A stretch of DNA of 64,000 bases from NCBI GenBank assembly GCA_016795485.1, contig JAEUHM010000004.1, positions 62,001 through 126,000 on the forward strand, given 5' to 3'. The notes beneath the pieces were generated by a model. The model saw nothing but the letters and a program-made list of their open reading frames with translations, was not told where the DNA came from and made no database searches. Position numbers and translations under genes: made by a program. Below are positions 17,920-19,756 of the stretch, in pieces (within the stretch, counting starts at the first letter, position 1; every line of letters begins with the position of its first letter). This DNA comes from Verrucomicrobiaceae bacterium. Its GTDB lineage: Bacteria > Verrucomicrobiota > Verrucomicrobiia > Verrucomicrobiales > Verrucomicrobiaceae.

Positions 17920-18041
17920 TCCAGAGTATGCCGCGGCGCTTATTTTGAGTGCCCTGTAATGAGACAGAAGAAAGCCCGACGTAGAGGTAGAGCTGAGCGA
18001 ACGGACATTCTCCCTAGTAGGTCTGGCTCACTACCTCCCGA

Positions 18042-18077
18042 ACGCAGTCGGGGTGCTCGTCACCTCGACTGCGTTTT
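18042..18077 (+). terminator. Rho-independent terminator after the cytochrome pair
   Basis: A 14-bp stem (18042-18055 with 18061-18074, one G-U pair) closes a 5-base loop CTCGT and runs into a T-run. It lies about 120 bp after the last stop. Just upstream, AGGTAG/TGAGC (17985-17998) can pair with GCTCA/CTACCT (18026-18036), so the transcript end may be more structured than a bare terminator. Confidence 0.75.
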
Positions 18078-18174: not shown

Positions 18175-18921
18175 ATGTTCCGCCGCATCTCTAATCTCTT
18201 CCGTGGCTTTCTGTCTCTCTTCATCTCTGGGCTCGAAAAGGAGAACCCAGAGGCATTGCTTGAGGTGGAAAAAGAAAACCTCCGTAAACAGATCGCTCAA
18301 TACAATCAGGGACTCGCTTCCCATGCGGGCTTGTGCGAAAAGCTGATCTCTACGGTTAAGCAACTGGAGAGTCAGGAGCGTGATTTGAAAGCAAAAACTA
18401 CCGCTCTGCTGCGTGCCAATGCGCGTGATGCTGCGGGGCAGGCAGCACTGCATTTCCAAAATGTCTCCCGCCAGCTTGCTGAGGCCCGCAGCCAACTTGA
18501 GGCAGCAGAGAAGACCTACAAAGAACTCATCAAGTCCCGAGATGTCGCTATCAAGGCTGCTCAAGACAAGATTGAGAAGCTCAAGTATGCGCTGGATGAT
18601 TTGAAGATCAAAAAGGCGACGGCTGAACTCAATGAAATGGCGTCTGGGATGATCACTGAAATCGGTGGCGCGGGTGATACGCTGGACCGTCTTCATGGCA
18701 TGGTGGAAGAGGAACGCCAAAAGGCCGCAGGAAGAGCCCGAGTGGCTAGGGACTCCATGGACATGTCCGATGTCAATTTGAAAGAGGCCGAGCAACAAGC
18801 TCTTGCTGAATCGGCATTGGCCGACTTTGCAGCGGCAGAAGGAATAGCATTGGATGCGCCTGACGCTGCGGCAGAGGGCGCTGCCCCAGCTGCTAGAACC
18901 ATGGGCCAGGCTGAAGGCTAA
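18175..18921 (+). CDS. PspA/IM30-family membrane-associated protein
   Basis: About 248 aa from the ATG at 18175. The first 25 residues are amphipathic and membrane-binding in character (MFRRISNLFRGFLSLFISGL). They are followed by the long alternating-charge helices of the PspA/IM30 (ESCRT-III-like) fold: ENPEALLEVEKENLRKQIAQ, then coiled coil to about residue 190. The Ala-rich tail is probably disordered. Family members polymerise on the inner membrane and respond to envelope stress. An in-frame GTG at 18151 is an alternative start. The stop TAA is directly followed by the GTG of the next gene with no spacer, so the two are almost certainly co-translated. Confidence 0.8.
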   Translation: MFRRISNLFRGFLSLFISGLEKENPEALLEVEKENLRKQIAQYNQGLASHAGLCEKLISTVKQLESQERDLKAKTTALLRANARDAAGQAALHFQNVSRQLAEARSQLEAAEKTYKELIKSRDVAIKAAQDKIEKLKYALDDLKIKKATAELNEMASGMITEIGGAGDTLDRLHGMVEEERQKAAGRARVARDSMDMSDVNLKEAEQQALAESALADFAAAEGIALDAPDAAAEGAAPAARTMGQAEG

Positions 18922-19707
18922 GTGGCCACACCGGTCCAGAGCGTTCTTTTACATCCAGCTAGCCTACCTGGGCGGTTCGGTATGGGGGAAATAGGCCCTG
19001 AGGCATGGCGCTGGCTGCAAGTACTTGGTGAGGCCGGCGTGAAACGCTGGGTAGTTCCTGGCGGCTTTCACGATGTCATGCTGCTCAGTTTTGATCTGCT
19101 TTTTCAAGACGGTGCGCTGCTTGCCGGTGATCTGCAGATGCTCCCCCATTTTGATGAGCACGCTGGTGCGGCAGCAGCAGCCAACGAAGTTCGGACGGCG
19201 TTTCTAGAACTGGCGTCACGCCGATTTCTCAGTCAGTGCGATGCTAGTCCACTTATTCGTTACGCGGTTGAGCGGTTTGCCGATCAGGAAGCTGAATGGC
19301 TAGACGATCAGGTGCTCTTTGAGGTCCTGCAAAAGGACTTGGGTGAATGCGATTGGCGCAAGTGGCCAGATGAGTTGTCCAAGCGCAAACCCGAAGCCTT
19401 GGACGAGGCCTTGGTTTCCTTGGCGACAGAGATCGAGGAGCGCAAGGCACTGCACTATTTGCTAAATCGCCAAGTGGCTCGGCTCTTTGCCCAAGCTCAG
19501 GTTTCAGGTGTCGAGATCTTGGGTCTACCAGCATGCTCAGCCGTGCGGGATTGGATCGGGACGGCACCCGCGGCAATCGAATTGCCTTCTGATTGTGTTC
19601 GTGCCGAGACTCTTTTCGAGCGTCAAGTTCACGCAGGCTCAGATTGGAGGTTTACGTGGCCAGAAGTCACCGCTGAGGTTCTGAAGCGCTTGTTTCGCGA
19701 AGATTGA
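18922..19707 (+). CDS. Shortened GH77 (4-alpha-glucanotransferase-like) protein lacking the catalytic region
   Basis: 261 aa starting with GTG immediately after the PspA stop. The start VLLHPASLPGRFGMGEIGPE matches the N-terminus of MalQ/GH77 enzymes, and residues about 130-200 match their helical insert (DDQVLFEVLQKDLGECDWRKWP, then a HYLLNRQ segment). In MalQ these lead to the catalytic barrel, but here the protein jumps after about residue 215 to a tail containing WRFTWPEVTAEVLKRL, which resembles MalQ's C-terminal end. The expected length is about 500 aa. The Asp/Glu/Asp catalytic residues lie in the missing part, as does most of the sugar-binding loop. The frame is intact and the spacing to pspA tight, so I regard it as a maintained non-catalytic derivative rather than a pseudogene. 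Confidence 0.7.
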   Translation: MATPVQSVLLHPASLPGRFGMGEIGPEAWRWLQVLGEAGVKRWVVPGGFHDVMLLSFDLLFQDGALLAGDLQMLPHFDEHAGAAAAANEVRTAFLELASRRFLSQCDASPLIRYAVERFADQEAEWLDDQVLFEVLQKDLGECDWRKWPDELSKRKPEALDEALVSLATEIEERKALHYLLNRQVARLFAQAQVSGVEILGLPACSAVRDWIGTAPAAIELPSDCVRAETLFERQVHAGSDWRFTWPEVTAEVLKRLFRED

Positions 19708-19723
19708 AGGAGGTGAGGCCAAC

Positions 19724-19756
19724 AAAAAAGCGGATGTGGAGGGCATCCACATCCGC
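19724..19756 (-). terminator. Rho-independent terminator of the rpsF unit
   Basis: Read on the minus strand, an 11-bp perfect stem (arms 19756-19746 and 19740-19730, GCGGATGTGGA paired with its complement) with loop TGCCC is followed by six T (19729-19724). It lies 30 bp after the rpsF stop. Its stem-loop shares GTGGATGCCC with the lptD terminator. Confidence 0.88.

Follow-up and report, generated by a model that had tools for sequence, protein, structure and literature searches.

A shortened, catalysis-less MalQ gene directly downstream of pspA in a Verrucomicrobiaceae genome

The gene pair and its GH77 remnant

What can a malQ gene still be good for once the part encoding its catalytic residues is gone, and does the pspA gene on whose stop codon it abuts have anything to do with its survival? 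These questions are raised by a gene pair in the window, i.e., the whole stretch of 64,000 nucleotides analysed here (contig JAEUHM010000004.1, positions 62,001 to 126,000). In a preliminary description, the pair had been read as a PspA-like protein fused by zero-gap spacing to a GH77 derivative, strictly linked to it and possibly sensing glucans in connection with envelope stress. The genome of the window is called G000 below; G002 (JAEUHN) and G003 (CAUJJC) are two species of one sister genus (g3). The features, in window coordinates, are as follows:

18040..18076, + strand: terminator-like hairpin between an upstream 915-aa gene and pspA, 16 pairs (pattern match only)
18175..18921, + strand: PspA/IM30-family gene, 248 codons from ATG 18175 (PF04012 38.3 bits, cut-off 33.9)
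18922..19707, + strand: short catalysis-less GH77 gene (pseudo-MalQ), 261 codons, GTG start (ORF and homology)
18922..19524, + strand: retained N-terminal part, residues 1-201, amylomaltase strands 1-3 and helical insert (AlphaFold pLDDT mostly >80; VIA-align Z 21 to amylomaltases)
19051..19083, + strand: residues 44-54, site of deletion or rewriting of the invariant glucan-contact loop GPTGYGxSPYQSxSxxAGNP (2/20 invariant positions kept)
19525..19575, + strand: junction between the two retained parts, residues 202-218, site of the missing stretch of about 250 residues that carries the catalytic Asp/Glu/Asp (alignment; low model confidence)
19576..19704, + strand: retained C-terminal tail, residues 219-261 (IEL..., WRFTW...), corresponding to the last barrel strand and helix (tail similarity p <= 0.0015; models align to the amylomaltase C-terminal end)
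19730..19756, - strand: terminator-like hairpin between the short malQ and a convergent rpsF-like gene, 11 pairs followed by a T-run (pattern match only)

The pspA frame is open from 18151, and the ATG at 18175 is the start that agrees with the relatives (MFRRISN... vs. MLRRLSN/MYRRLSN); the PF04012 score confirms the earlier assignment of this gene as PspA-like. The gene ends with TAA at 18919-18921 and the GTG of the GH77 gene, which likewise agrees with the starts of relatives, occupies the very next base (18922), the stop being a TGA that ends at 19707. The zero gap described before is thus real, but the two genes are not fused, since they are abutting ORFs and not one protein. As the pair is bracketed by the two terminator-like hairpins, a two-gene transcription unit is likely, and pspA and the short malQ are probably co-transcribed and translationally coupled in this genome, judging from their arrangement. 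By GC content at the three codon positions, the short malQ was not distinguishable from its neighbour genes. A ribosome-binding-like AGGAGGTGA was also observed at 19709-19717, almost directly after the short malQ stop, and the longest ORF behind it has about 18 codons.

The homology of the short protein to GH77 is evident from a PF02446 (Glyco_hydro_77) score of 78.8 bits (cut-off 25), whose best stretch covers profile positions 58-198, the N-terminal part, and from the match of PDB amylomaltases to its residues 7-202 (E 2e-18). The NCBIfam MalQ subfamily score of 104.6 bits, however, falls short of the cut-off of 477. Alignment with 24 full-length MalQ proteins from the same bacterial family (511-529 aa as aligned) indicated that amylomaltase residues 1 to about 201 and the last 45 or so are kept, in agreement with the preliminary description; the loss amounts to about 250 residues relative to the full-length homologues. 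None of the catalytic residues D293, E340 and D395 (T. thermophilus numbering) has a counterpart in the short protein, while the motifs are present in the full-length relatives. With the middle of the enzyme gone, the 261-aa protein does not have the complete (beta/alpha)8 barrel with its 250s and 460s loops. The local alignment score of the tail with the MalQ C-termini of sister-genus and G008 proteins was higher than in all of 2000 shuffles, and two other MalQ C-termini gave p 0.0005 and 0.0015 (2000 shuffles). The missing middle piece was not found elsewhere in the window, and the genome, at 6.5 Mb and 99.9% completeness, yielded no second GH77 gene. Domain homology is shared with active GH77 4-alpha-glucanotransferases, but the catalytic triad, the full barrel and the subfamily cut-off are not; what the protein does combine is the homology without catalytic residues and the retention by selection that characterize a GH77-derived pseudoenzyme. 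An assembly or sequencing artefact was considered as the origin of the short form and rejected, because two independent sister-genus MAGs have the same kind of short form.

AlphaFold2 models were obtained for the window protein (mean pLDDT 84.5, pTM 0.84) and the short protein of G002 (mean pLDDT 83.9, pTM 0.85). With VIA-align, these were superposed onto amylomaltases with Z 21 and Z 26-27, respectively; on the T. aquaticus enzyme, 255 of 261 residues were aligned over chain 2-494 for the former and 288 of 296 over 1-500 for the latter, so that an amylomaltase-like fold is established for the remnant at the level of prediction. Since the models span both ends of the amylomaltase, the tail would stand where the full enzyme has its last strand and helix. 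In the GH13/GH77 barrel, strands 4, 5 and 7 carry the catalytic residues at their ends, and the loss would therefore remove strands 4-7 and leave 8-1-2-3; as these four strands adjoin each other in a (beta/alpha)8 barrel, the remnant would be a contiguous half-barrel with two free edges. Such a half-barrel, composed of the inferred strands 8-1-2-3 and the helical insert, seems to remain in the models, though it may be forced by the alignment, because the model input was dominated by full-length MalQ.

The explanation that we consider reasonably probable is that of a retained GH77 pseudoenzyme, which is reduced to a half-barrel and serves, with no sugar chemistry involved, as a soluble module for binding proteins. 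The gene would descend from that of a 4-alpha-glucanotransferase of family GH77 (T. thermophilus type) whose barrel lost its middle, and with it every catalytic residue, but retained strands 1-3, the helical insert and, at the C-terminal end, the last strand and helix. The half-barrel could then serve as an adaptor or regulator, using its helical insert and exposed barrel edges to bind a partner protein or a second copy of itself in a self-complementing dimer, and in G000 its gene would share a transcript with, and be translationally coupled to, the gene of a PspA-family membrane protein.

Short and degenerate MalQ in related genomes

Short forms were searched for in 68 genomes of the family, in 387 genomes at the level of the order and 384 at that of the class, and in wider genome contigs. 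Most of the 68 Verrucomicrobiaceae genomes encode a full-length MalQ. In G002 and G003, a short MalQ of about 296 aa was found; its alignment with the window protein extends to the end of the latter, and it is also devoid of the catalytic triad. It shows the same kind of internal loss and the same tail and is about 42% identical, but is longer by some 35 residues and follows a coiled-coil gene rather than pspA. No further clear short MalQ was detected across the order and class genomes and the genome contigs, and a scan of the contigs with a single protein as query gave no match. Known short members are thus three, all from one family. Other GH77 ORFs of <=400 aa (G608, G644 and L112) provided no clear case; L112, the one examined, was rejected as a short form, being an otherwise full gene with one frameshift. 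It was also observed that MalQ proteins of the Verrucomicrobiaceae are of two kinds: compact ones measure about 520 aa and score 555-580 bits, longer ones measure about 570-620 aa and score 300-370 bits, and in some genomes only one kind is present. As a separate observation, of 30 genomes searched for RNase R, 28 had a match and the remaining two, G002 and G003, had none.

The 451-aa MalQ of G004, which represents a third genus, likewise has no catalytic triad; it clusters with the short proteins and has substitutions in common with them, but differs in that its middle part is still there, though scrambled. This genome also differs in carrying a second, full-length GH77 gene and a glycogen phosphorylase split over two frames; the two ORFs (C148:28619-30761) represent either a frameshift or a decaying gene. 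Glycogen phosphorylase scored >400 bits in 63 of the 68 family genomes. In the same search, it was absent from G000, and G002 and G003 gave a divergent 74-bit match only. The link between phosphorylase loss and MalQ degeneration is not strict, however, since G019 and G035 (87-90% complete MAGs) have no phosphorylase match yet keep a full-length MalQ.

It is conceivable that catalysis was lost separately in each lineage, the folded half being kept for an older moonlighting role of full-length MalQ. The ends of the deletion differ between G000 and g3, the G004 protein is a third form in a genome with its additional full-length enzyme, and the three short proteins do not come out as a clade of their own (p-AU 0.149), all of which would fit such recurrent shrinkage. 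In a tree of purA, from which the sister-genus relation of G002 and G003 is taken, G000, G001, G002 and G003 form one clade (99/96), and G001, which has a full-length MalQ, lies inside it. Against separate losses, a branch (78/85) in the tree of the N-terminal part of MalQ separates the four degenerate proteins from the others, the closest to G000 being G004 (91/82), and T25A, F112A and I228L are common to these four in contrast to all active homologues. Because of this grouping and the shared substitutions, a single origin of the degenerate proteins is favoured by the sequences, though not established, and repeated shrinkage is regarded as a possibility of lesser weight.

PspA as a candidate partner

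Could the half-barrel, if it is a binding module, act on PspA itself? According to this proposal, it would bind PspA and modulate its assembly or recruitment, as has been proposed for CesT/Tir-like, band-7 and AAA proteins elsewhere. The zero-gap TAA|GTG junction on one strand between terminator-like hairpins speaks for it, as does the variety of partner proteins whose genes adjoin pspA elsewhere (PMC11237479). In the sister genus, the short malQ also stands behind a coiled-coil gene, whose product has one probable membrane helix by sequence inspection and so a probable membrane anchor. This gene (L032:6617-7564 and its counterpart in L033) encodes a long coiled-coil protein with a serine-rich part, with a dN/dS of 0.107.

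The strict linkage to pspA that had been claimed did not survive the comparison of genomes. No PspA match was found in G002 and G003, though the short MalQ is present in both; in G004, no coiled-coil gene was identified upstream of the degenerate malQ, at a place where the assembly has a gap. Among the 68 genomes, close relatives of the window's PspA (63-68% identical) occur only in G001, G008 and G066, three other genera, where pspA has different neighbours: genes for an NMT1/OmpA solute-binding protein, for the permease and the ATPase of an ABC transporter and for a coiled-coil protein, with an AAA ATPase gene in the same operon seen in G066. An arrangement of PspA with an ABC transporter, a PBPB-OmpA protein and an AAA ATPase has been described (PMC11237479), and it is in such an operon that these three orthologues sit. 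The window's pspA lies outside it, flanked by the short malQ and by the 915-aa gene, whose product looks PVC-type haem-binding-like on inspection, and none of the classical psp partners (pspFABC, liaIH, clgR-pspA) is among its adjoining genes; a related coiled-coil gene stands alone on contig C4. There (G000 C4:193702-194553; L179, L180), the coiled-coil gene of the operon is found without pspA or transporter genes, beside an unrelated 1090-aa ORF.

The adjacency of pspA and short malQ was thus seen in G000 only (n = 1) and may be recent. A search for short MalQ proteins beside pspA, suggested in the preliminary description, yielded the short homologues of G002 and G003, but none of those stands beside pspA; most homologues are full-length and none was seen next to pspA, yet short ones do exist. 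As the two genes are probably co-transcribed and translationally coupled, PspA is a candidate partner of the half-barrel and a reasonable lead, no more; it is not an obligate one, and we consider it rather unlikely that binding PspA is the function of the remnant. In a broader version, the half-barrel would be a dedicated partner of membrane-associated coiled-coil proteins, namely PspA in G000 and the probable membrane-anchored protein in the sister genus, a glycogen enzyme having turned into part of an envelope-maintenance complex after loss of the phosphorylase pathway. This is more speculative still and appears improbable.

Selection, glucan contacts and known parallels

It has to be asked whether the G000 frame is open merely by luck in a pseudogene that decays after loss of the glycogen pathway. 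Its branch is long (1.15 replacements per site), phosphorylase has been lost, and the gene is known from one genome of its genus. In the sister genus, comparison of the short malQ of G002 and G003 gave dN 0.021 and dS 0.31, i.e., a dN/dS of 0.069, which is not near 1 in this close pair; it was 0.02 for the N-terminal part and 0.18 for the tail. The control genes of the same pair had values of 0.044 (purA), 0.034 (malate-dehydrogenase-like) and, for the upstream coiled-coil gene, that given above. For the window gene, a codon model with eight sequences and two topologies gave a dN/dS of 0.12-0.13 on the G000 branch, a rough value, because dS is saturated there, and a branch average that includes any time before catalysis was lost and is compatible with recent decay in G000; dN/dS = 1 was rejected under both topologies (2dlnL 13.2 and 13.0).

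Structural positions were kept selectively: outside the sugar-contact loop, 42 of 54 positions that are invariant in active enzymes are preserved, compared with 57 of 133 variable ones (p 2e-5). The start codon and the tail are intact as well. After the divergence of this branch without constraint, about 17 stop codons would be expected, and the chance of finding none without selection is about 6e-8. Taken on codon comparison, purifying selection is demonstrated in the sister genus and, on average, along the G000 branch, and the low dN/dS in the former and the rejection of dN/dS = 1 on the latter uphold the earlier statement that the frame is intact and selected. Decay is therefore a very unlikely explanation. 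Selection thus retains the remnant in two or more genera of a single family, and it has probably taken on a new, non-enzymatic job.

That this job is glucan sensing, as had been proposed, is not borne out by the residues involved. Amylomaltases bind glucans via Y54, Y101 and Y465 on the surface and via Y59 and others in the active site (PMC8465469). The short proteins have had the loop with the Y54/Y59 equivalents deleted or rewritten and no longer contain the 460s region, and in the G004 protein this loop is altered; the alignments show the short proteins to have lost these contacts as well as the catalytic residues. F112 was tried as the equivalent of Tyr101 and dropped, as it aligns with Tyr97. 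A remnant that still binds glycogen or maltodextrin and reports to an envelope-stress protein would fit its descent from an alpha-glucan enzyme and the partly kept fold, but with both the active and secondary glucan sites (PMC8465469) so affected, no other GH77 and no glycogen phosphorylase in G000, and the pspA adjacency confined to one genome, a glucan-sensing system with PspA is the least probable of the explanations. The lost glucan contacts and the missing phosphorylase argue instead for a role of the fold only, most simply protein binding, as in the half-barrel module preferred here.

Pseudoenzymes in which single catalytic residues have been lost are a familiar class. In the present case, the loss seems to comprise half of a (beta/alpha)8 barrel, the other half being retained under selection, in genomes where a pathway enzyme is missing or divergent; no earlier account of a truncated or inactive MalQ was found in the open-access literature. 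This provides a natural case for asking which roles MalQ may have besides its chemistry and what keeps a half-barrel in solution. There is a practical side as well, in that annotation by domain hit would name the gene a 4-alpha-glucanotransferase and so predict a pathway that is not there.

The closest known system is GH77 amylomaltase MalQ of the T. thermophilus type (PF02446, PRK14508), to which residues 1-201 and the tail are homologous and on which the predicted fold superposes; the window protein differs in having 261 instead of about 520 aa and in being without Asp/Glu/Asp, the 250s loop and the sugar-contact loop. A parallel is offered by plant BAM9 (PMC8774843), a non-catalytic glucan enzyme serving as a regulator, which similarly has an enzyme fold without catalysis. 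BAM9 belongs to the beta-amylase family and to plant starch degradation, whereas the window protein has parted with its glucan-contact residues as well.
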